Shown here: in pieces, positions 6,353 through 40,658 of the stretch
How the letters are laid out: every line of letters starts with the position of its first letter
Position numbering within the stretch: position 1 is the first letter of the stretch
Assembly (NCBI GenBank): GCA_018066145.1
Contig: JAGHRY010000064.1
Span: 1 to 40,958 of the forward strand
DNA from: Candidatus Colimorpha merdihippi
Lineage (GTDB): Bacteria > Bacteroidota > Bacteroidia > Bacteroidales > P3
Reading direction: 5' to 3'
DNA length: 40,958 nt
Translations under genes and position numbers: made by a program
The notes under the pieces: generated by a model
Told to the model about the DNA's origin: nothing
Databases searched by the model: none
The model's input: the letters and a program-made list of their open reading frames with translations, nothing else

Positions 6353-7462
6353 CTATCTATTAACGATGATATCAATAATCCGATCGACATCAGCATCAGA
6401 TAGTGAATGATGTAATGGCAAACAAATTACTTCTTCCGATACTCGAGTAGCATTCGGTAGATTTTGTATGGTCGAACTCGGTAATCCCCTATATGTACTA
6501 AACGTGCTAATTAGTGGATAGAAATAACGACGTCCGAAAATGCCATTTTCTTTCATCTTAAGATATAGCTGATCACGAGTAATGCCATACTCATCAGCAT
6601 TCACGAAAATCGGGAAATAACCATAGTTATGCCGTACCCCTGGAATATCGTCAATGAAACGAATGCCAGAAACATCACGTAATGCCAACTTATAGCGAAT
6701 AGCTACTTGACGCCTAGCTTCTATCGCAGAATCAACTTGTTTGAGATTGAGCAATCCACAAACAGCACGAATCTCATCCATTTTGCTATTGATGCCTGGC
6801 GCTATCACTTCGGTTTCACTTGCAAAACCGAAATTTTTTAGATAATCGATACGCTGTTTCAGTGCATGGTCGTGCATGATCATTGCGCCACCTTCTATCG
6901 TGTTATAGACTTTTGTTGCATGGAAACTAAGCGTTGAAACATCACCATATTCTAAAATTGAACGACCATTGATTTCTACGCCAAAGGCATGGGCAGCATC
7001 ATAGATAACTTTCAACCCATACTTATCAGCTATTGCTTGGATACGGTCAACATCGCAAGGAATGCCATAACAATGGACAGGCATAATAGCTGTTGTACGT
7101 GGAGTAATTGCAGCCTCGATAGCATCAGGATCAATACCACAAGTGCGTGGATCTATATCCACAAATACGGGTTTGATTCCATTCCACCATATACTATGAG
7201 TAGTGGCTACAAAACTATATGGGGTCGTAATCACTTCGCCAGTAATTCGCAATGCCTGGAGAGCAGTAAGCAATGGAAGTGTTCCATTGGTAAAGAGACT
7301 AATATATGGCACTTTTAGGTATTCACATAATGCTTTCTCTAACTGTTTATGAAACTGTCCATTATTTGTAACCCATTTACTATCCCACACCTTTCTAAGT
7401 TCTGAAACGAACTCATCATAGTCGGGCAACAAAGGTGAAGTTACTGTAATATTATCTGCCAT
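6353..7462 (-). CDS. DegT/DnrJ/EryC1/StrS family sugar aminotransferase (VioA-like, 4-amino-4,6-dideoxyhexose type)
   Basis: WDSKWVTNNGQFHKQLEKALCEYLKVPYISLFTNGTLPLLTALQAL; ITTPYSFVATTHSIWWNGIKPVFVDIDPRT; VIYDAAHAFGV; LSFHATKVYNTIEGGAM (PLP lysine). Confidence 0.9.
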   Translation of the reverse strand: MADNITVTSPLLPDYDEFVSELRKVWDSKWVTNNGQFHKQLEKALCEYLKVPYISLFTNGTLPLLTALQALRITGEVITTPYSFVATTHSIWWNGIKPVFVDIDPRTCGIDPDAIEAAITPRTTAIMPVHCYGIPCDVDRIQAIADKYGLKVIYDAAHAFGVEINGRSILEYGDVSTLSFHATKVYNTIEGGAMIMHDHALKQRIDYLKNFGFASETEVIAPGINSKMDEIRAVCGLLNLKQVDSAIEARRQVAIRYKLALRDVSGIRFIDDIPGVRHNYGYFPIFVNADEYGITRDQLYLKMKENGIFGRRYFYPLISTFSTYRGLPSSTIQNLPNATRVSEEVICLPLHHSLSDADVDRIIDIIVNR

Positions 7463-10012: not shown

Positions 10013-10804
10013 TTAATTTCTACCAGTAAAACGTTGAACATAATTCATAAGCGAAGTGGTAAGGGTAAGCATAGAGAGACCAACCGATAACCACGACACC
10101 AATCGACTAGCTTCTGATCTTGGTGTTGCTTTATTATATTTTTGAGTGATTATGAAATCATTCTGTTGCAACATAAAGAAGGGATCCTGAAACACTGATG
10201 AAGATCTTGGATCAAGATAACGCATAACCATCTTTCCATCCACCTCACGCATAACAGCAATTTTATTACGATTTGTATACATGCTTAAATCGCCACACAT
10301 AGCAAGTGCCTCAAGAAAAGTACAACGCTCATTTGTAATGTGAATCACTTTACCTCCTTCTGCTCCAAGGAAAAATATTTTAAAACTAGCAAATCGAATC
10401 ATCACGACGGCGTCTACCAAATATCCACCTCTCACTAACATATTTTTAATCGAATCCTGCAAAGCCAATCGGGACAGTCCCGCAACATGCACTTCACCAA
10501 GAATCGGAAACTGAATATTACCATTCACATCTACTATGTACGAACCATGGGTTCCCTGTCCTACACCAGAATTGACAGCAGAACGACCAATGTTGAACGG
10601 TTTTGCCAGTTCTTCATTTGATGAGAATACCGTGATGTTTAATTCATCATAAGGGGCAACTACTGCCTGAAATTTATTCTCTAATTCAATTTGGCTTCCA
10701 TGCTCCATATCTTGAAGATAGTTAACCTGACCTGGTGTTACACAGGAGGTAAGAGCAACAGTTGCAACAAGTGCAATCAAAGGTAACTTGTATACTACTT
10801 TCAT
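10013..10804 (-). CDS. wza: Wza-like polysaccharide export lipoprotein
   Basis: Lipoprotein signal MKVVYKLPLIALVATVALTSC; YDELNITVFSSNEELAKPF; SYIVDVNGNIQFPILGEVHVAGLSRLALQDSI. Confidence 0.9.
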   Translation of the reverse strand: MKVVYKLPLIALVATVALTSCVTPGQVNYLQDMEHGSQIELENKFQAVVAPYDELNITVFSSNEELAKPFNIGRSAVNSGVGQGTHGSYIVDVNGNIQFPILGEVHVAGLSRLALQDSIKNMLVRGGYLVDAVVMIRFASFKIFFLGAEGGKVIHITNERCTFLEALAMCGDLSMYTNRNKIAVMREVDGKMVMRYLDPRSSSVFQDPFFMLQQNDFIITQKYNKATPRSEASRLVSWLSVGLSMLTLTTSLMNYVQRFTGRN

Positions 10805-16483: not shown

Positions 16484-17443
16484 TTATCTCCCTTGAAAAG
16501 CGATAATTCGAGGATCTAAAATCACACCACGCTCAAAATTATGACAATCTCTCAATACTTTACTATCCAATGGATGGCCTTCGATAAAGAAATCAACATA
16601 TTTTACAAACTCTTTACTTAACGTTTCTGTAGTAGTTTTCCAAAAAAGTGAGGGTGTATGGTCAACCACATAATGGGTGACGCCATCAATCTTATACGTT
16701 GGATTTTCGATCGTAGTCGGAATACTTGTTTCCACTCCGCCACAACGATCGCAAGAGACATCAATGATCATCGAATTATGACGCATTCTTTTCAAATCTT
16801 CTCGATAAATGATATGATCTTTGCGCGATGTATCCCACAAGATCGCATTTACAATAACATCAAACTGTGTTAACTCTTCTCTAAACAAGGCTTCAGTTTT
16901 ACGATCATACTGAATTACTTCTGCGCCCATGAAATTTAATGTTTTCACAGCGCCGCGTGCAATATTTCCTCGACCCAATACCGCAGCTCTTGTATTATAT
17001 GGAAATATTCCATGGCACATATACGCGTGGAAAACAGCCGCTTCACCAGCTATCTCATTATTACGCCAGAAAGAATGTCGCCCATTCTCATACATATCTT
17101 CCCATGCAAATGAAGACAGGTGATGATTTATTATTTTGTCTGTAATATCTCTATTCTGAACTGCATGGACCCATCCAAAAATAGTCTGATTATCTAATTG
17201 ATCGAGATATTCTGCATCACCAATTTTGGGATCTGCTATATAATTCTTCGTCAAAACCTCCTGCCTTGATGCAATATTAACACCCTGACGACGATATTCT
17301 TCATCAGAAAAACCCAAAATCTCTCCATAGCCTTCTTCAATAAATATCTGTTTTGGATTATTAATAAATTGGATATCTTGAGGTACAAGCGTTCTACGCT
17401 TTTCATTTTCTTTATGTGAGATAGGAAGACCTACTGTATTCAT
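16484..17443 (-). CDS. N(5)-(carboxyethyl)ornithine synthase-like opine dehydrogenase (alanine dehydrogenase/PNT superfamily)
   Basis: MNTVGLPISHKENEKRRTLVPQDI; IADPKIGDAEYLDQLDNQTIFGWVHAVQNRDITDKII; AVLGRGNIARGAVKTLNFMGAEV; VNAILWDTSRKDHIIYREDLKRM; DGVTHYVVDHTPSLFWKT. Confidence 0.85.
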   Translation of the reverse strand: MNTVGLPISHKENEKRRTLVPQDIQFINNPKQIFIEEGYGEILGFSDEEYRRQGVNIASRQEVLTKNYIADPKIGDAEYLDQLDNQTIFGWVHAVQNRDITDKIINHHLSSFAWEDMYENGRHSFWRNNEIAGEAAVFHAYMCHGIFPYNTRAAVLGRGNIARGAVKTLNFMGAEVIQYDRKTEALFREELTQFDVIVNAILWDTSRKDHIIYREDLKRMRHNSMIIDVSCDRCGGVETSIPTTIENPTYKIDGVTHYVVDHTPSLFWKTTTETLSKEFVKYVDFFIEGHPLDSKVLRDCHNFERGVILDPRIIAFQGR

Positions 17444-21865: not shown

Positions 21866-22825
21866 TTATTTCTTTATCCAAGATCCTTCATGTCCAAGAA
21901 GGCGTTTTAGCCGACGATTAAGTCGGTATTTCAGTCTCCTTCTTCCTTTCTTCCCATAATTATCAGGATCGAAGTATATCCTCTGAAAATCTCTATCGGC
22001 AAGACGTTGAATCGACTCATCTGTTGGATGAATTATCGGGAGTATCGAACTTGTTTTCTTTGCAGCGGCAGGAGAATTAGAATTCCATGTATGCGTCGAA
22101 TCTTCACAAAAACCTATATTGGAACATAGATTCACATTTGGCAAAATACCTTTCCCTCCCCGCCTCCAAATCGACATCCAGAATTGCTGATCCCAACTAG
22201 AATTATGTAAACCATCCTTATGTATCTCATCCAACCGGGCACACCAATATTCCCTCTCTCTCAAATCACATTTATATCTCCTTAATACACTATTTAATTC
22301 TTTTCTATTTAAATCGACCAATTTAATGTCAAAAATTCCCCATGCCCTCCTCCATGTTGCCCAAGCACATAAAGTATGGTTCATTCTGGAAAAATAGTAC
22401 GACCCATCACCATACCTTTTTCCTTCCAACTGCATACTACCGATGCACATCACATTTCCATCATTGCGATAACGATCCAACATTTGTGCAGCAAATTCAA
22501 AAAAATCAATATGCGGAACAGCGTCATCTTCTATTATAATACCCTCATCAACATGTTCAAAAAACCATGAAATGCCTCGCGCCGGTCCTGGGCCACACCC
22601 TAAATTCACTTCAGAGTATAGCGTATGGACATCACATTTCCAATCTATACTCTCCGATATTACGGTACGGACTTGTTGACACCTTTCTATATCTTGAGTA
22701 TTACCTTCACGAGCTCCATCTTGAAAAACGAACAATACTTCAGGCTCATACTCCCTTATAGCTCTCAATACTGTGCTGGTTAATTCCGGCCTATTAAAAG
22801 TAACTAAAAGTACTGGTTTCTTCAT
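21866..22825 (-). CDS. Glycosyltransferase (GT-A, GNT-I/HlpA-like)
   Basis: KPVLLVTFNRPELTSTVLRAIREYEPEVLFVFQDGAREG; NLGCGPGPARGISWFFEHVDEGIIIEDDAVPHIDFFEFA. Confidence 0.78.
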   Translation of the reverse strand: MKKPVLLVTFNRPELTSTVLRAIREYEPEVLFVFQDGAREGNTQDIERCQQVRTVISESIDWKCDVHTLYSEVNLGCGPGPARGISWFFEHVDEGIIIEDDAVPHIDFFEFAAQMLDRYRNDGNVMCIGSMQLEGKRYGDGSYYFSRMNHTLCAWATWRRAWGIFDIKLVDLNRKELNSVLRRYKCDLREREYWCARLDEIHKDGLHNSSWDQQFWMSIWRRGGKGILPNVNLCSNIGFCEDSTHTWNSNSPAAAKKTSSILPIIHPTDESIQRLADRDFQRIYFDPDNYGKKGRRRLKYRLNRRLKRLLGHEGSWIKK

Positions 22826-23550
22826 TTTTCCTTTTTTAAATAATAGCTATCTATAGGCTTCCGTCCTATTCCGTAATGGAATCGATAATTCGATGCTCCA
22901 TCGGTGAATACCGGAACCACTTTCTTCTGCTTTAGAATTTGTTGGGTCTGTTCTGAATAGTTACCCCATGTATAAGCATAAAAAGATATATATCTCGGAT
23001 GGTTTGATAGCATATTAATACATTTATTCACAGATTCTTCAAACTGGTCCGAGGATAGTCGAGTTGCATCATTGTGCTCATATCCATGCATTCCTATTGT
23101 GACGTTTTCTGAATGGATTGAAAACAAATCTTTATGAGTAATATATTGAGGGTTAAGTGAATATTCTTTTCGTTTACTTATTCCATCCAAATAACAAGGA
23201 TTCACGAACAAAGTAACTGGCACTTTTCTTTCTTCAAGAAACGGTATTATCTGCAAGACGGATTCAAAACCATCATCACAAGTCAATACCGCATACTTCT
23301 TACTTCGGAATAAATCATGACACATCATCCAATACGCTTGTTCTAAAGAAATAAACGTGTATCGTTGTTGATAATTAATAATCCTCTGTTTGAAATCTTT
23401 TGTAGATGACCAATCAACCCTCATATTCAATTGCTCATCATACTTGTCACTCACTGCGTGGAACACGAATACTTCAATTGGAGACAATCGCATTTTCTCC
23501 ATCTTCCTAACAACTTTCCTAAACATTTTTCTCACTCTACCCATGCCCAT
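22822..23550 (-). CDS. Polysaccharide deacetylase (NodB-like)
   Basis: YAVLTCDDGFESVLQIIPFLEERKVPVTLFVNP; VTIGMHGYEHNDATRL (metal-binding His motif). Confidence 0.86.
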   Translation of the reverse strand: MGMGRVRKMFRKVVRKMEKMRLSPIEVFVFHAVSDKYDEQLNMRVDWSSTKDFKQRIINYQQRYTFISLEQAYWMMCHDLFRSKKYAVLTCDDGFESVLQIIPFLEERKVPVTLFVNPCYLDGISKRKEYSLNPQYITHKDLFSIHSENVTIGMHGYEHNDATRLSSDQFEESVNKCINMLSNHPRYISFYAYTWGNYSEQTQQILKQKKVVPVFTDGASNYRFHYGIGRKPIDSYYLKKEK

Positions 23551-24191
23551 TATTTATTCCTAAAAATTCGACTGCTTCTTATCTTTCCTGTATTAAAAAA
23601 ATGGACATAATCGAATAATTCGAACCAATGTAATGCATCCCCACATAATTTTGTCTTTAAAAGGTCTCCTTGACAATATTTCGGATTTTTTATAACAAAC
23701 ACCGACTTGAGTCCAGGATAATCCTTCATCGTTATTATTGCTTTATGCTTCAAATTAAGACGATCAAATTCTTCAACATCTTCCTCCGGACAATTATCAC
23801 CATCTACCAAAACAAATAAATTGTCCAAATCTAGTCGCTTTGCCCTGTCATACCACTTCTTCCTAACCTCAGCTTCGGTTGAATAATGAATAAAATGTAT
23901 AGTTACATCTCCAAGCTCACTCCGCAAAACACCTACCGGATATTTATACTCTGATGGAATAAAATCTATCGGTTGATTGACATAATAATCTATGTTTGAA
24001 ACAAACACATTAAACTCTGCAGGAACGAAAAATGCACAATTAATAGTCGGCGATTTAAATTGAAGACCTAGCTCATGACTTATCATTCCACCTAAACAGG
24101 TATTTGAGACCAAAGAAAAATTATTATTCCTAAGTCTTGACCTATTTAGAAACCGCACTACAGATTTAATTATTTTTAATCCAATTTTCAT
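23550..24191 (-). CDS. DUF1919 family exopolysaccharide biosynthesis protein
   Basis: NNFSLVSNTCLGGMISHELGLQFKSPTINCAFFVPAEF...YPVGVLRSELGDVTIHFIHYSTEAEVRKKWYDRAKRLDLDNLFVLVDGDNC. Confidence 0.84.
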   Translation of the reverse strand: MKIGLKIIKSVVRFLNRSRLRNNNFSLVSNTCLGGMISHELGLQFKSPTINCAFFVPAEFNVFVSNIDYYVNQPIDFIPSEYKYPVGVLRSELGDVTIHFIHYSTEAEVRKKWYDRAKRLDLDNLFVLVDGDNCPEEDVEEFDRLNLKHKAIITMKDYPGLKSVFVIKNPKYCQGDLLKTKLCGDALHWFELFDYVHFFNTGKIRSSRIFRNK

Positions 24192-25249
24192 CCTCCAAAT
24201 CCATCACCATCTCCTCCCTGTGAGACGGCATCTTTTATTATATTAAATGATTCCGGGTACGAGAAAGAAATTCTTTCTTCTCTTTCATTCCAAAAAATCT
24301 TACTTCCACTAATATATTGAGCCAATCGAGGATCCCTCGTCGAAAAATTATTGTTTTTCAACTTTATTATATGTTCAGCAATCGAAGCGAAGACTTGTTC
24401 TTCATATTTCTCGTTATAATATAGATACTTGATTGACAGGCTTCTATCCGAATCGCTAATATAATAATAACCCTGCAATTTCCCATCCACAAAAATCTTC
24501 ACTCCCGACTTCCAAAACCGAGAACTTTTCCCTGCGAAGTATCCCGTCCAGTAATCTCTACCATATAAAGGAGCCCAATGTCTATATGAATATTCCATTA
24601 TCCAATTTAACATTGGCTGCTCTCTTTGCCATAAGTCTTTTTCCCGGTGATCCTGTATAAACGAATATGTGTTATCATCTATAAAGCTGGTATACATCAA
24701 ACGATATTTGGTCAAAGTTACTTTTTTCTTTATCCCGGAACGACGCAACCTATTTGCAGCTTTCCAATTCTCATAATGATACAGTAACTTTCCTTTAAAA
24801 GTATCTTTGACGATATTTTTTTGTTCGAAAATATACTCGCTCACGAATGTATTTTTCAAACCCAAAAACTTGAATATCTCTACTGTTTCTGCAGCGCCCC
24901 ACATATCGAAATAATTCCCTTCACCATACTCCTCTGCCAAGCAACCAACGGCTATTAAGGCATAACCCTTACCTCGACAATCCGGATGGCACCACAAAGT
25001 TGTAAACCACCATACCTTTTGACCGCTTATCAAATCTGGGAAAGCTGCAGTACAGGCGACCATTTTATCGTCTTCAAAAACTGCAGAGGCAATTGGATCA
25101 TCATCCAAAATGTATGGGTTATGTAAAATTGCATTCGCCCTATCGGGAGATAGAATTCGATTGGAATATCCTTCCAAAGGACGATTATGCCATAACCAGT
25201 CTCGGACTTCCTTGGCTTTAAAGATCTTTATGTCGACTTGTTCTTCCAT
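24188..25249 (-). CDS. GNAT-like acyltransferase
   Basis: Acetyl-CoA-site-like TTLWCHPDCRGKGYALIAVGCLAEEY; translationally coupled downstream of the carrier protein gene. Confidence 0.75.
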   Translation of the reverse strand: MEEQVDIKIFKAKEVRDWLWHNRPLEGYSNRILSPDRANAILHNPYILDDDPIASAVFEDDKMVACTAAFPDLISGQKVWWFTTLWCHPDCRGKGYALIAVGCLAEEYGEGNYFDMWGAAETVEIFKFLGLKNTFVSEYIFEQKNIVKDTFKGKLLYHYENWKAANRLRRSGIKKKVTLTKYRLMYTSFIDDNTYSFIQDHREKDLWQREQPMLNWIMEYSYRHWAPLYGRDYWTGYFAGKSSRFWKSGVKIFVDGKLQGYYYISDSDRSLSIKYLYYNEKYEEQVFASIAEHIIKLKNNNFSTRDPRLAQYISGSKIFWNEREERISFSYPESFNIIKDAVSQGGDGDGFGG

Positions 25250-25492
25250 CTAACCAATATGGTTCAAAACAGAATCAATAATTGCCCCCATATTCTTCAT
25301 TTTCAATATTTCTATCATTTTGAATTTGAAACCGAATTCATGCTCTATTTCAGAAAGAAATTGTGTAAATGTAAGTGATGTCCATGCAGGCACATTCGAG
25401 GCACTTAATTCATCACTGATTTTTAGCTCCGGTTGTCCAAACACAGCTTGAGCTATCAATTCCAACTTATCAGAAATCTGTTGTCTTGTCAT
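25250..25492 (-). CDS. Acyl carrier protein (phosphopantetheine-binding)
   Basis: 80 aa acidic helical protein; candidate 4'-phosphopantetheine Ser in PAWTSLTFTQFLSEIEHEFGF; 1-nt overlap with the upstream adenylation gene. Confidence 0.82.
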   Translation of the reverse strand: MTRQQISDKLELIAQAVFGQPELKISDELSASNVPAWTSLTFTQFLSEIEHEFGFKFKMIEILKMKNMGAIIDSVLNHIG

Positions 25493-27000
25493 TATATCAA
25501 TTGTTTTAATGCTGCTCGATCAATCTTATCAGAATGATTCAGCGGGAAGGTATCTAGATAGATTATACGAGAAGGTATCATATATTGCGGCATTTTAGAT
25601 TTTAAATATGCCTCTAATGAAGATCTCTCACGTCCAATAGATTCAATAAATAACGCTATTTCTGTCAATCCTTTTTCATTATTAAACGATATGGCTACGC
25701 TTCGACAATTATTATCATAAAAAGTTCGCGCATGATACTCTATTTCTCCTAACTCTACTCTATATCCTTGAATTTTGGCCTGCTGATCGATTCTGCCGGA
25801 ATAAATAATATTGCCACTCTTGTCCCAATAACACAAATCCCCAGTAGAATAGAAACGCAACAACTCTCCTTCTATCTCTTTAATAAAGAAGGATGCATCA
25901 TTCCGTTCATCATTTTTCCAATATCCTCGGGTAATTTGATCGCCAGCAACACATAGTTCCCCCTTTATTCCCTGCCCCAAACTGTTACCATCTTCATCAA
26001 TAATAATGGCATTTACATTAGCAAGTGGTTTACCTATCGAAATAATACCATTTGACGACAGGTTAGTTTCGTCACGGTGCAACTTATAGCATGTACAATA
26101 TATAGTAGCCTCGGTCGGCCCGTAGAAATCATATATATCTGTATTTACCGCACATTTGAACCAATCCTCCATCAAATCTACTGGACACGCTTCTGCAGTG
26201 AGAATGCATGTTTTTAATGATTCTATCTTCATCTCCGAAAAATAGGGCCGTAAGTACGAAAGCATCGAAGGAGCCATAGCACCAAATGTAATACCCTGGT
26301 CTAACATCAATTCTGCTGCATAGAGATATTTTACTTGCCCGTAAGGAATTGTATAAACACTAGCCCCTTTGACCAATGCCACCAAAAATGATTGAATACT
26401 TACATCAAAAGTAAGGTCGAAAGCTTGAAGACACTTATCTGACGATGTTATTTCTATTCCCGTCTTCCAAAAAGAATCCATGAAGGTTGCAATATTCTTC
26501 CTCGACAAGCAAACTCCTTTTGGTGTACCCGTACTCCCTGAAGTGAACAAGATATATGCCAAATTGTCATCTGGTACTTGCACCGGGTCTTCTATACAGA
26601 TTTTTTTTAAGCAACTCGTTGTTTTTATTATCTGAAAACCAGAAGCTTCAAATGGCGATTCTTTTGCAGAATCAATAATATAATTGGTACCAACCTGAGC
26701 TAGAATATTCAAATTTCTATCCAATGGTTGATTAGGATGAAGTGGTACGTATGCTTTACCCTCCATCCATAATGCAATAATAGCCGCATATGTATCAACA
26801 TCATCGTGTACAGCTAATGCTACAATATCATCAATAATTTTCTGATGCTGGATTGCGACTCTAATTTGACAAATCTTCGTTCCTAATACAGCATAGGAAT
26901 ACGAAACCCCATTAATATAAAAAGCACAATTCTCTCTACATTCGAGAATCTGTTTGCTTATGGGCAATAGTACTTGATCAAAAAAGCTATTTACCTGCAT
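25492..27000 (-). CDS. Free-standing amino-acid adenylation enzyme (NRPS A-domain / DltA-like)
   Basis: NLAYILFTSGSTGTPKGVCLSRKN; YDFYGPTEATIY; STGDLCYWDKSGNIIYSGRIDQQAKIQGYRVELGEIE; C-terminal catalytic Lys in LNHSDKIDRAAL. Confidence 0.93.
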   Translation of the reverse strand: MQVNSFFDQVLLPISKQILECRENCAFYINGVSYSYAVLGTKICQIRVAIQHQKIIDDIVALAVHDDVDTYAAIIALWMEGKAYVPLHPNQPLDRNLNILAQVGTNYIIDSAKESPFEASGFQIIKTTSCLKKICIEDPVQVPDDNLAYILFTSGSTGTPKGVCLSRKNIATFMDSFWKTGIEITSSDKCLQAFDLTFDVSIQSFLVALVKGASVYTIPYGQVKYLYAAELMLDQGITFGAMAPSMLSYLRPYFSEMKIESLKTCILTAEACPVDLMEDWFKCAVNTDIYDFYGPTEATIYCTCYKLHRDETNLSSNGIISIGKPLANVNAIIIDEDGNSLGQGIKGELCVAGDQITRGYWKNDERNDASFFIKEIEGELLRFYSTGDLCYWDKSGNIIYSGRIDQQAKIQGYRVELGEIEYHARTFYDNNCRSVAISFNNEKGLTEIALFIESIGRERSSLEAYLKSKMPQYMIPSRIIYLDTFPLNHSDKIDRAALKQLI

Positions 27001-27922
27001 TCTTATGCTTTCTTATATATAACAATAATTTTGTCGTTGTGCGCAGATTCTTTGACACCTTTAAGTATTCTTGCAAGTACTTTAAAGCCATATTGTATCT
27101 GCCCATCCTTGCATTGGACCGAATGCTTTCACTTAATGTTTCTAAATAAACACATTTAGAATATTCTGATGGATTAATTTCATAGAATTCGCGATCTATC
27201 GGTAATGATTTGACACAATAATCATCTTTTGATATCATGCTATGTATCCCACCTTGATGATACCTATACACTCCACCATTAAAGGCAAACAAATATCCCT
27301 TTCCCACAGTCAAAAGGTGATATATTTCATGCATATCACGATAATATCTATATTGTTTTTGCCATTCTGGAGTAAACATCGATCGCCTGAACACCATTGT
27401 TAATGGCTGCGTTACCCATGGACCGAAGAACATTTCCATAGAAATATCTACTCCAACCTGATCTTTTTTGAGATATCTGCCACACTTGTCCCGACTAAAC
27501 TTTCCATTCTCTGAATTCAAATGACTACATCTATGGAAACAAACGGAATAATCCGGATGTGATTCCATAAAGTCTACTTGTTTTTGCAACTTTTGAGGAT
27601 CTGTCCAATAATCATCACCTTCACAGTATGCAATATACTTACCTCTGGCTCTATTGTAATTAAAAGCTATATCAATCACCGACTCCATCCCTTTCGAATA
27701 CTGATTCTCATCTTCATACAATGGGAATATTCGACTAGGGTATTTCGATGCATATTCTTTTATTATTTGATCCGACCCGTCAGTAGAGCAGTCATCATGA
27801 ATCAATACTTCATACTCAAAATCGGTTTGTTGCATCATAAAACCATCCAAACATTCCTTCAAAAAAGGGGCATGGTTGTATGACAAACAACAAATACTTA
27901 CAAGTGGTGTAGTATCTACCAT
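26987..27922 (-). CDS. Glycosyltransferase family 2
   Basis: PLVSICCLSYNHAPFLKECLDGFMMQQTDFEYEVLIHDDCSTDGSDQII; YIAYCEGDDYWTDPQKLQKQVDFME. Confidence 0.93.
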   Translation of the reverse strand: MVDTTPLVSICCLSYNHAPFLKECLDGFMMQQTDFEYEVLIHDDCSTDGSDQIIKEYASKYPSRIFPLYEDENQYSKGMESVIDIAFNYNRARGKYIAYCEGDDYWTDPQKLQKQVDFMESHPDYSVCFHRCSHLNSENGKFSRDKCGRYLKKDQVGVDISMEMFFGPWVTQPLTMVFRRSMFTPEWQKQYRYYRDMHEIYHLLTVGKGYLFAFNGGVYRYHQGGIHSMISKDDYCVKSLPIDREFYEINPSEYSKCVYLETLSESIRSNARMGRYNMALKYLQEYLKVSKNLRTTTKLLLYIRKHKNAGK

Positions 27923-27926
27923 TACC

Positions 27927-29129
27927 TTACTCTACTTCTACATTATATAAGCGATTTACATCCCTCATATAATTATCCATTATATCTTTATTATCGAAAT
28001 GAATAAACATTGTTCCAACGGTATCGTTGGCCCCATTGAATCCTCTGACTTCAACCCCGGAATCCAAAAATAAAGTTTTATCAACCACCATTCTCTCCAA
28101 CTCAGGCAACACTTCAACACTTCTTAATTTCCCAGTCTTGTTCGAATGAAGAATGACATTCCCCCAATATCCATTGCAACTTTTTTTATCAATTTCGAAA
28201 TTCATCCCAACAGCTGCTTTCACGGCACAATCAATCATATCTATTCCATAAGCATATCGAACCATCTCTGATAATCGATTGCCGCCGCCTCGTGGAGAAA
28301 CTTCCATTAAATAAGGTGTGCCATTCTTACTAATACGACATTCAATATTGAAAACTGACGTTCTCATTTGCAGTAAGTCAATCAACCGTTGAATTTCGCT
28401 TGTCAAATATTCTTGAACCGAGTTTGACATAGAAGATGGCCATGAATATGCCGCTGGAGTGAATGGATTGGGCGCATTTTTATCGAACAATTGGTTGTCA
28501 AACGAAACAAATGCCAATTTGCCATTTACAACAAAACTATCTGCATCGGATGTAGTGCCCAAAGGTTCGATGAATTCTTCAATGATAAAATCAGATGAAT
28601 GTATCGAAAATAATTGAGCTTGATCAATTGCCTTCTCCAATTCTGCTGGACTATCAACCCTTGTTACCCCTTTACTACCCGCAGAATCGACAGGTTTTAC
28701 AATACAGGGATAAGGAATCGTTGATATTTCCTGAAGAGCCATTGACTTGTCTTTGTACGACTTAACTATCGGTACATTGAAACCATTTTGCTTCAAGAAA
28801 GCCCTAAACAGGGACTTATTTTGCAATATTTCCACCGAATTACTTGGTCCTGCCGCTGGAATACCCATCTTCTCTGCTACGTAAGCCGCAGTGGTTACCC
28901 CAGGATCAACTGCAAAAGACAAAATCCCATCAATATTCTTTTCCTTAGCCACGGAAAGAACCGCTTCTTTGTCAATGATACTCACATTCACATACTCATC
29001 AGAGTATTTGTGTGCCACATTATCCGGTAGATAATCAGCTGTGATAACATGAATACCTAATTTATGGGCCGCCTCAATCACAGGTACCAAATAATAGATA
29101 CCACCTAAAAGCATTAATTTCTTTTTCAT
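27927..29129 (-). CDS. ATP-grasp carboxylate-amine/thiol ligase-like protein
   Basis: PYPCIVKPVDSAGSKGVTRVDSPAELEKAI; DFIIEEFIEPLG; FNIECRISKNGTPYLMEVSPRGGG. Confidence 0.88.
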   Translation of the reverse strand: MKKKLMLLGGIYYLVPVIEAAHKLGIHVITADYLPDNVAHKYSDEYVNVSIIDKEAVLSVAKEKNIDGILSFAVDPGVTTAAYVAEKMGIPAAGPSNSVEILQNKSLFRAFLKQNGFNVPIVKSYKDKSMALQEISTIPYPCIVKPVDSAGSKGVTRVDSPAELEKAIDQAQLFSIHSSDFIIEEFIEPLGTTSDADSFVVNGKLAFVSFDNQLFDKNAPNPFTPAAYSWPSSMSNSVQEYLTSEIQRLIDLLQMRTSVFNIECRISKNGTPYLMEVSPRGGGNRLSEMVRYAYGIDMIDCAVKAAVGMNFEIDKKSCNGYWGNVILHSNKTGKLRSVEVLPELERMVVDKTLFLDSGVEVRGFNGANDTVGTMFIHFDNKDIMDNYMRDVNRLYNVEVE

Positions 29130-34491: not shown

Positions 34492-35010
34492 TTATTGAAC
34501 TATCTCTAAAAAATGAGGGTGTATATATGTAGTTGCTACAGCAGCTACCCCTCTTATACTTACCACCAGACGGCGATCTTTTTTAATACGTTTGATATGG
34601 CCTTCGGCACCTTTAAATGGCCCATCAGTCACCCTAACCCTATCTCCTTGATGGTACTCTGGCTTATCTTCCCCTAAATATGAAAGTCCTTGTTTGCCAG
34701 CTGAACAAACAAACATAAAAACTTCCATTTCGGCTTCAGGAATAGCAGCAGGTTTATGCGATAGAGGATCTCGATATATCCAAATTCGTTCAAAATTACT
34801 TTGTTCGAATTGCTTCATATAATCTTCTGTGCTATAAATAAAAACTAATGAACCTATCACCTCAGGCACATAATACCGGACTCCTTCTAACAATAGCTTT
34901 CTACAAATTACTTCCGTCCGGTTGTAATGCACTTTTACCGCATACCATCGCAGATCATCCACTTTCTCAATAATAAAAAATATCTCAAAACCAGGTGCAT
35001 TTCTTCCCAT
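34492..35010 (-). CDS. UpxY/NusG-like transcription antiterminator
   Basis: LRWYAVKVHYNRTEVICRKLLLEGVRYYVPE...SLVFIYS (NGN); YHQGDRVRVTDGPFKGAEGHIKRIKKDRRLVVSIRGVAAVATTYI (KOW); first gene of the locus. Confidence 0.88.
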   Translation of the reverse strand: MGRNAPGFEIFFIIEKVDDLRWYAVKVHYNRTEVICRKLLLEGVRYYVPEVIGSLVFIYSTEDYMKQFEQSNFERIWIYRDPLSHKPAAIPEAEMEVFMFVCSAGKQGLSYLGEDKPEYHQGDRVRVTDGPFKGAEGHIKRIKKDRRLVVSIRGVAAVATTYIHPHFLEIVQ

Positions 35011-38611: not shown

Positions 38612-39376
38612 TTATATGCAAGTGTAGCCTCCATCCACAACCAGGTTGTGGCCAGTCACCCATCTCGATGCATCACTTAACAGATAAATACACGCATATG
38701 AAATATCAGAACAAGCGCCAATCCCTAGCAAATGTTTATCTTCCAGCTTTTTTCGTTGTTCGGGGTCAGCCATGTGAGGTAGCTTGGCATTAATCGGAGT
38801 TTCGATAGCTCCCGGACTAATCACATTTACGCGAACTTTATTCTGTGCCAATTCACAAGCCATCGACCTTGCAGCTGAAATCAAAGCTCCTTTTGTGGCG
38901 CTATACATAGTCTTGCACTTATCCCCACACAATCCCATGATGCTAGAAAATAGAATAATACTGCATCCGCATTCTTTGTCATAGTTACCCATACGAGTTA
39001 CTTCTTTCGTTAGGTTGATTGCAGAATACACATTGGCGCGGAAGAATTGGTCCAACTGCTCATCCGTAATCAATTTCAATGGTGTAACCGATGAAATACC
39101 CGCACAGTTCACCACACCGCTAATTTTTCCCATTCTGGATACAACATCTTTGATCGTCTCTTTCATTCCTTCTGACGACGCGAGATCAAATGGCAAAATC
39201 ATGTGGCCATCGCCTTCCATCTGTTCCAAAGTCTGATGAAGACGTTCTTTATTTCGTGCAATTAACACCACTTTTGCACCCATTTTGGAGCAATCGATAG
39301 CACATTGGGCACCTATACCAGATGATGCACCCGTAATAAGAATAGTTTTACCAGTTAATGAGAATGGGTTAAACAT
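38612..39376 (-). CDS. SDR family oxidoreductase (FabG-like 3-oxoacyl-ACP reductase)
   Basis: GKTILITGASSGIGAQCAIDCSKMGAKVVLIAR; NCAGISS; YSATKGALISAARSMA; VTGHNLVVDGGYTCI. Confidence 0.9.
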   Translation of the reverse strand: MFNPFSLTGKTILITGASSGIGAQCAIDCSKMGAKVVLIARNKERLHQTLEQMEGDGHMILPFDLASSEGMKETIKDVVSRMGKISGVVNCAGISSVTPLKLITDEQLDQFFRANVYSAINLTKEVTRMGNYDKECGCSIILFSSIMGLCGDKCKTMYSATKGALISAARSMACELAQNKVRVNVISPGAIETPINAKLPHMADPEQRKKLEDKHLLGIGACSDISYACIYLLSDASRWVTGHNLVVDGGYTCI

Positions 39377-39506
39377 ATCATTACGTTATTATATTATTAA
39401 TCAAATCCCATTTAGCAATAAGCCACATTCGTTCTGTTCATTGTATTAAACTAAACTATCTAGCTCATCGTTTTTGTCGATAAAATCATTACTTTAACAA
39501 TCTTTA

Positions 39507-40658
39507 TCAATCGCCATTCGTATGGGTGTCTAATTCTTCGGGGACACCTTCTATTGGAGTATATTCTCGCCGGAGATATTCATCTACTGGCTGTCCGGAT
39601 TCTACTTCTACAATATCTGATATCTTTGTGTCAACAAAAGACACGATTCCCGTTGCCCATGTCATACCCACACCAAAAGCAGACAGCATAAGGCACTTGC
39701 ATCCATCCAGCTTATCCTTCAATTCGCTAACGATAGTAAGGGGTACAGATACTGAGGAAGTGTTGCCAAACTTCTCAATCGTGTGGGGTATCTTGGACAC
39801 ATCTAGCTTCATTTTTTTGGCAATAAACGCATTGATGAAGTTATTTGCCTGATGGAAACAGAAATAGTCGATTTCCTCAACTGCTTTCCCCGACTCGGCA
39901 ATGGTCTTCTTTATGTCACGCGGAATCTCTCGGATTACAAAGTTGAACACATCACCACCCTTCATATAGCCTTGTTCGTCGCTTCGCATATTGCCATATT
40001 CATCAACAACACGCTCAACAAGTGTCTCCGGCGTTGAGGGATGACGGTAACCACCAGCCTTTATCATAATGAGATCGGCACGTGAGCCATCTGTATTGAG
40101 AGAAAATGTAGTTTCACCAAACTTGTCATCCTTCTCTACGAGCGCAGCCACACCACCATCACCAAAAATAAAGGCACTTCTTCGATCGCGTGGCCCATAA
40201 ACCTTGCTTCGAGTCTCACCATCAAGGATTAACGCCTTACGAATAGCCCCCGACTGCATCATGCTGTATGCCACAGACATACCATAGATAAATGCCGAAC
40301 AGCCTAGATTCACATCAAAAGCAATACAACTATTGCTAAGCCCTAGACGATGCTGGAGCGTACAAGCGGTAGCCGGCATACGATAATCCTGAGTCTGCGA
40401 GATAAAGATTAGAAGATCAATCTCCCCGCGGTCAATCTCATTATCAATAATAAGCTTTTGGGCAGCAGCAAAACACAAATCAGACGAGCAGGTGTTTTCA
40501 TCGGCAAATCTGCGCTCGTACACACCCACTTTCTCAACAACCTCTATTACCTGTTCTTTCGGGAAGAAATCGGTATACTCCAGGTTATTGACAACTCTTT
40601 TGGGTACTGCACCAGCCAGGGCCGTAATACCTACACCTTTGAACTTAAGTAAAGCCAT
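39507..40658 (-). CDS. 3-oxoacyl-ACP synthase III (FabH-like)
   Basis: Catalytic Cys in DVNLGCSAFIYGM, His in FCFHQANNFI, Asn in FGNTSSVSVP. Confidence 0.9.
   Translation of the reverse strand: MALLKFKGVGITALAGAVPKRVVNNLEYTDFFPKEQVIEVVEKVGVYERRFADENTCSSDLCFAAAQKLIIDNEIDRGEIDLLIFISQTQDYRMPATACTLQHRLGLSNSCIAFDVNLGCSAFIYGMSVAYSMMQSGAIRKALILDGETRSKVYGPRDRRSAFIFGDGGVAALVEKDDKFGETTFSLNTDGSRADLIMIKAGGYRHPSTPETLVERVVDEYGNMRSDEQGYMKGGDVFNFVIREIPRDIKKTIAESGKAVEEIDYFCFHQANNFINAFIAKKMKLDVSKIPHTIEKFGNTSSVSVPLTIVSELKDKLDGCKCLMLSAFGVGMTWATGIVSFVDTKISDIVEVESGQPVDEYLRREYTPIEGVPEELDTHTNGD

Follow-up and report, generated by a model that had tools for sequence, protein, structure and literature searches.

A candidate carrier-dependent N-aminoacylation cassette in a surface polysaccharide operon of Candidatus Colimorpha merdihippi

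The question raised by a 40,958-nt stretch of DNA from Candidatus Colimorpha merdihippi (contig JAGHRY010000064.1; hereafter "the window") is why what looks like a polysaccharide operon should contain, in direct succession, genes for a stand-alone adenylation enzyme of the nonribosomal peptide synthetase (NRPS) type (here called the A enzyme), a small carrier protein and an acyltransferase of the GNAT family. An earlier sequence-only reading had proposed that an amino acid is activated, loaded onto the carrier and transferred to an amino sugar, and that the amino acid could be N5-(carboxyethyl)ornithine. In the analysis described below, the order of activator, carrier and transferase, the amino sugar as acceptor and an alpha-amino acid as substrate were retained, and carboxyethyl-ornithine was given up; the A enzyme, carrier and GNAT were correctly recognised as parts of the cassette, while a deacetylase, which is the most constant partner of the GNAT, had been overlooked. 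With a probability of roughly two in three, the genes serve carrier-dependent N-aminoacylation of a sugar destined for a capsule or O-antigen, the acceptor being a de-N-acetylated amino sugar.

Open reading frames (ORFs) and DNA confirmed the three genes as previously described, with the stop codon (TAA) of the A gene overlapping the ATG of the carrier gene by 1 nt and the ATG of the GNAT gene placed directly after the carrier stop codon (zero gap; Table 1). The 3' end of the GNAT gene overlaps the start of a DUF1919 gene by 4 nt, and the deacetylase gene follows one gene beyond the GNAT, with the DUF1919 gene in between; upstream, the A gene shares 14 nt with a glycosyltransferase gene.

The description of the A enzyme as complete and stand-alone was borne out by the presence of TSGSTGTPKG, YGPTEATIY, STGD, GRIDQQAKIQGYR and DKIDR, together with the C-terminal catalytic Lys (K492); motifs A3, A5, A7, A8 and A10 plus this Lys assign the protein to the ANL superfamily. 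Its score against Pfam PF00501 (184.7 bits) is well above the cut-off, and that against TIGR01733 (299.8 bits) is below the cut-off of 317.4, with a match spanning nearly the whole model. The solved structures nearest to its AlphaFold2 (AF2) model (predicted local distance difference test, pLDDT, 87) are all amino-acid-activating A domains (template modelling score about 0.7-0.8), including DltA and VinM, a stand-alone enzyme solved in complex with its carrier VinL. The Asp previously aligned by eye with the alpha-amine-binding residue of NRPS A domains is D199, the second Asp of FDLTFDVS, which corresponds to Asp235 of GrsA and is invariant in 14 of the 14 A enzymes compared. An alpha-amino acid substrate is thus supported by D199, K492 and the closest solved enzymes.

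The substrate pocket derived from the alignment (D199 V200 Q203 A241 L267 A269 F292 I300 Y301 K492, or DVQALAFIYK) is identical in the window and in genome G018, and shows conservative changes in four other capsule loci. In addition to the equivalents of Asp235 and Lys517, it possesses Val236/Gln239 and Ala301 as in proline domains. Since Val236 and Gln239 form the pair present in most proline-activating domains (PMC12283262), of which DVQYIAHVVK and DVQYVAHVVK are example pockets (PMC9113097), proline or a proline-like acid is tentatively suggested as the substrate, at odds that fall somewhat short of even. Relatives in other contexts differ: three non-capsule loci share the pocket DAHKLGVINK, which, within the small set compared, is closest to methylglutamate codes.

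The carrier protein matched NF009104 (5e-6), and its relatives in loci L061 and L081 pass the PF00550 cut-off. Its predicted attachment residue, Ser39, is invariant in eight aligned carriers, and a phosphopantetheinyl transferase domain is present in the window genome. The GNAT exceeds the cut-off of PF00583 (24.9 bits versus 20.7) and is modelled by AF2 (pLDDT 92.4) as a tandem GNAT, for which the nearest solved folds are two-domain GNATs of low sequence identity; the pantetheine-loop motif is retained and the C-terminal QGGDGD is conserved.

The family to which this GNAT belongs was found in 47 of 295 Bacteroidales genomes, and a deacetylase gene adjoins it in 26 of the 31 loci examined, these being distributed over many Bacteroidales families and sometimes having the A, small GNAT and carrier genes, or a FemAB-like gene, between the two partners (three of the five remaining loci are cut by a contig end). 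Within the genus of the window, the deacetylase is present in all six complete cassette loci, and it was also found in L012 and G027. No signal peptide is evident in the window deacetylase, which is proposed to expose the amine required by the GNAT.

The A gene was detected in the window genome and six other genomes of the genus, and the GNAT gene in the window genome and five others, in the same type of capsule operon; the entire A-carrier-GNAT unit occupies six capsule loci of the genus (the window and five other species). Because it is conserved in other species, the cassette is not a chance arrangement of genes. At least six related A-carrier-GNAT loci were found elsewhere in the phylum: the three genes occur together in L019, L060, L064, L072 and L077, which belong to other families, and are consecutive, in the order GNAT, A enzyme and acyl carrier protein (ACP), in G528, outside Bacteroidales. 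In genome G018 (L017:6993-13163) one A enzyme and one carrier are accompanied by two divergent GNATs, separated by DUF1919 and ATP-grasp genes, and these GNATs possibly serve two acceptor amines. A natural absence is provided by G027 (L122:10087-11825), whose copy of the same operon joins the glycosyltransferase directly to the deacetylase and is devoid of the A, carrier, GNAT and DUF1919 genes, as well as of a gene resembling that of N5-(carboxyethyl)ornithine synthase (CEOS). As a separate observation, in the five loci of other families named above, which are not capsule loci, the gene for an additional small GNAT of about 250 aa separates the A gene from the carrier gene (in L064 this GNAT and the A enzyme share one reading frame stretch); the additional GNAT may modify the carrier-bound amino acid.

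Further evidence comes from loci in which the enzymes surrounding the carrier have been replaced. L061:5338-9288 (G180) encodes a carrier, an FkbH protein (296 bits against TIGR01686, cut-off 147), a GNAT and a deacetylase in one run without an A enzyme, which suggests that here a GNAT of this family delivers a glyceryl group to a sugar amine, and L082 contains genes for a carrier, a protein similar to beta-ketoacyl-ACP synthase III (KAS III), a deacetylase and a GNAT. Since an FkbH or KAS III-like protein may serve the carrier while GNAT and deacetylase stay the same, the carrier itself is indicated as the donor for the GNAT. In L081:8184-13278 (G035, same genus), where a GNAT of the window family is absent, an A enzyme, a formyltransferase and a carrier are followed by a DltB-like membrane-bound O-acyltransferase (MBOAT) and a protein that by eye resembles DltD. 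Because of these replacements in L061, L082 and L081, both the loader and the transferase appear exchangeable around the carrier, such exchange being a prediction of a thioester shuttle. The loader swaps lend indirect support to the predicted use of the carrier, rather than coenzyme A (CoA), as the acyl source of the GNAT.

In the scheme that is proposed here, an alpha-amino acid, for which proline or a proline-like acid is the tentative choice, would be converted by the A enzyme to its aminoacyl-AMP and loaded onto the phosphopantetheine of the 80-aa carrier. The NodB-type deacetylase would act in the cytoplasm on a sugar linked to a nucleotide or lipid, stripping an N-acetyl group to produce a free amine, an alternative acceptor being an amino sugar made by the DegT-type aminotransferase. 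The tandem GNAT would then pass the aminoacyl group from the carrier to the sugar amine, prior to polymerisation. The conserved linkage of the genes, the replacement of loaders and transferases, and the deacetylase that accompanies the GNAT thus support the earlier proposal of an activator, a carrier and a transferase acting upon an amino sugar. A broader proposition, rather less likely than not, is that the window cassette exemplifies a plug-in system, spread across Bacteroidota, for the exchange of sugar N-acyl groups, in which a constant deacetylase-GNAT pair would remove N-acetyl and re-acylate the sugar amine from a dedicated carrier, and interchangeable loaders (an amino-acid ligase, an FkbH glyceryl loader or KAS III) would choose the acyl group.

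Several observations weigh against carrier-dependent aminoacylation as outlined above. Most GNAT-deacetylase pairs in Bacteroidales have no adjacent carrier or A gene, and the GNAT family can therefore probably employ another donor (CoA or a housekeeping ACP); the GNATs of L018 and L012 are just 29-37% identical to that of the window; and G027 retains the deacetylase although it lacks the cassette, so that this enzyme must have some role of its own. The carrier falls just below the PF00550 cut-off (19.8 versus 20.8 bits), and its motif is WTSL instead of the usual DSL, the Ser being retained and the Asp replaced by Thr. WTSL was considered as a sign of an inactive carrier, and this was set aside because related carriers vary freely at this position, with Thr, Asn, Ser or the canonical Asp preceding the Ser. 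With regard to the substrate, the proline call is tentative because the remaining pocket positions do not match: the agreement extends to three of the eight variable positions, and F/L322 and Y331 are atypical of proline domains.

The frequency of GNAT-deacetylase loci without a carrier, the normal GNAT pantetheine motif of the N-terminal domain and the fact that the nearest folds are acetyl-CoA enzymes all favour the alternative that the GNAT is an ordinary acetyl- or acyl-CoA-dependent sugar N-acetyltransferase paired with the deacetylase, with the A enzyme and carrier feeding another step. This alternative is nevertheless considered unlikely: wherever an A, FkbH or KAS III loader accompanies this GNAT family, carrier and GNAT share a gene run, no second acyltransferase that might act with the carrier was identified among the operon genes, and deacetylation followed by re-acetylation would be futile.

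Two further alternatives involve the CEOS-like gene of the operon, the product of which has AlaDH/PNT domains and is about 30% identical to annotated CEOS. The operon type, for which a PaaK-like gene was used as marker, is present in seven genomes of the genus; the CEOS-like gene occurs in five genomes of the genus, all of them bearing the cassette (five of the six cassette genomes), and its products are 75-79% identical between operons. G018 carries the cassette in a genome without the CEOS-like gene, and G027 has neither; with seven operons, the association between gene and cassette is not significant. Because the gene is restricted to cassette-bearing genomes, a role in the same polysaccharide is possible. 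This co-occurrence, together with a pocket of the proline type, could indicate that the CEOS-like enzyme produces an N-(1-carboxyethyl) amino acid of the alanopine type (a secondary amine) which the pocket accepts. Known CEOS alkylates the side-chain amine, not the alpha-amine, and this, as well as the absence of the gene from G018, renders an alanopine-type substrate quite improbable. It is kept as an outside possibility because Qui4N of Providencia alcalifaciens O35 is known to carry alanopine as an N-acyl group (PMC10609480).

Even less probable is Dlt-like O-aminoacylation, whereby the A enzyme and carrier would supply a membrane O-acyltransferase and the polymer would receive an ester-linked amino acid. 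In its favour, DltA models give the A enzyme 233-235 bits, and the related A/carrier pair in L081 adjoins a DltB-like MBOAT; however, the equivalog cut-off of TIGR01734 is not reached (233 bits against 560), no MBOAT or DltD was seen among the translations of the window ORFs, and the window pocket differs from that of the L081 enzyme (DLFLFGVIFK). L081 is itself noteworthy as a polysaccharide locus of a Gram-negative bacterium that contains a Dlt-like gene set.

The weakest proposal, namely that the CEOS-like enzyme supplies N5-(carboxyethyl)ornithine for activation by the A enzyme, can be drawn from the confinement of this gene to cassette-bearing genomes, but was rejected since G018 has an identical pocket without a CEOS-like gene, which argues against the CEOS product as the monomer, since the proline-like pocket is unsuited to a long basic side chain, offering D199 as its sole acidic residue, since the identity to CEOS is low, and since about 7 kb, with several genes, separates the CEOS-like gene from the cassette.

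Table 1 Features of the window that are relevant to the cassette
Feature	Coordinates	Strand	Length	Remarks
Stand-alone NRPS/DltA-type aminoacyl-carrier ligase (A enzyme), predicted	25492..27000	-	502 aa	
Acyl/peptidyl carrier protein, predicted	25250..25492	-	80 aa	Predicted phosphopantetheine Ser39 in WTSL
Tandem-GNAT N-acyltransferase, predicted	24188..25249	-	353 aa	RGKGYA and QGGDGD motifs
NodB/CE4-type deacetylase	22822..23550	-	242 aa	CDDG and HxxxH metal motifs retained
DUF1919 protein	23550..24191	-	213 aa	Accessory; in just two cassette loci
Family-2 glycosyltransferase	26987..27922	-		Conserved left neighbour of cassette; left border of the block absent from G027
CEOS-like AlaDH/PNT-type protein	16484..17443	-		Same operon; link to cassette unproven
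DegT/DnrJ sugar aminotransferase	6353..7462	-		Operon end; alternative source of amino sugar acceptor

The run of genes that surrounds the cassette begins with a short antiterminator-like protein gene at 34492-35010 (judged by sequence and place), includes Wza- and Wzz-like genes at 10013 and 7503 (named by sequence) and extends to 6353; it has the appearance of a single Bacteroidales polysaccharide operon. An ATP-grasp protein encoded at 27927-29129, adjoining the cassette, has a weak match to the C-terminal part of L-amino-acid ligases and varies across loci (53% identity in G018, 25-27% in G017 and G027). Outside the operon, short-chain dehydrogenase/reductase and KAS III-like genes are located at 38612-40658, and this KAS III by eye resembles the one that adjoins the carrier in L082.

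Amino acids in amide linkage to amino sugars have been recorded in many O-antigens and capsules, where they may contribute to immunospecificity (PMC10609480), and a 2025 paper on N-alanyl linking sugars stated that its authors knew of no pathway for the transfer (PMC11969387). The cassette constitutes a compact and testable candidate pathway for the biosynthesis of N-aminoacyl sugars, consisting of three small soluble proteins, a deacetylase and a predicted substrate, with G027 as a natural sister operon that lacks the A-carrier-GNAT block. To judge from the loader swaps, the gene adjoining the carrier may allow the acyl group to be predicted. If true, the plug-in logic could provide certain N-aminoacyl surface sugars of Bacteroidota, among them linking sugars of the Vim type, with their aminoacyl donor. 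The enzyme classes are ordinary and their combination is unusual; the chemistry has a biochemical precedent (SbzL/SbzG-K/SbzI, see below), while its use on a surface polysaccharide appears to be undescribed, literature searches having returned no description of carrier-dependent aminoacylation of polysaccharides.

Among known systems, the Flavobacterium psychrophilum O-antigen locus includes wfpD (an ACP) and wfpG (a PglD-like acyltransferase), the role of which is predicted (PMC6519341). It resembles the cassette in that a Bacteroidota O-antigen locus has a dedicated carrier as the predicted acyl donor to an amino sugar, and differs in its FAS-like route to the acyl group and in its PglD-type acyltransferase in place of a GNAT. 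The Dlt system (DltA-DltC-DltB-DltD) likewise employs a stand-alone amino-acid ligase and a small carrier for a cell-surface polymer; it possesses an MBOAT and DltD where the cassette has a GNAT and a deacetylase, and the window A enzyme remains far under the DltA cut-off and has another pocket.

In the Wbp/Vim pathway of Porphyromonas gingivalis and Tannerella forsythia, as proposed in the available part of its description, VimE deacetylates the sugar and the GNAT-related VimA introduces Ser or Gly in place of the 2-N-acetyl group; neither a carrier nor an activating enzyme is mentioned there, and the source of the aminoacyl group is not specified (PMC7468200). The two systems agree at the level of function, since in both a deacetylase gene accompanies an aminoacyl transferase gene (a predicted one in the window) in Bacteroidota, with the DUF1919 gene between them in the window. 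They differ in that VimA matches TIGR03019, whereas the window GNAT gave no match to this model at an E-value of 0.5, and a TIGR03019 search revealed no recA-vimA-vimE locus. A FemAB-like protein encoded beside MutS2, first taken as the VimA equivalent, was dropped as uninformative because it is near-universal in the order (221 of 295 Bacteroidales genomes), and a link to the type IX secretion system was similarly discarded, PorU being present in 57 of 61 genomes irrespective of the cassette.

The closest parallel to the transfer itself is found in the biosynthesis of SB-203208 (altemicidin-SB-203208), in which SbzL or SbzB loads the carriers SbzG/SbzK, from which the GNATs SbzI/SbzC were shown in vitro to pass on the acyl group (PMC6331615). 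Both systems comprise an adenylate-forming enzyme, a stand-alone carrier and a GNAT for transfer of an (amino)acyl group, a transfer that is predicted in the window, where the three genes are co-located and conserved as a unit. The likeness is one of function; the Sbz system serves a Streptomyces antibiotic and not a polysaccharide, and no deacetylase partner has been described for it. The window combines the parts of both systems, those for carrier-dependent GNAT transfer as in Sbz and those for deacetylation and aminoacylation of a sugar as proposed for Wbp/Vim.

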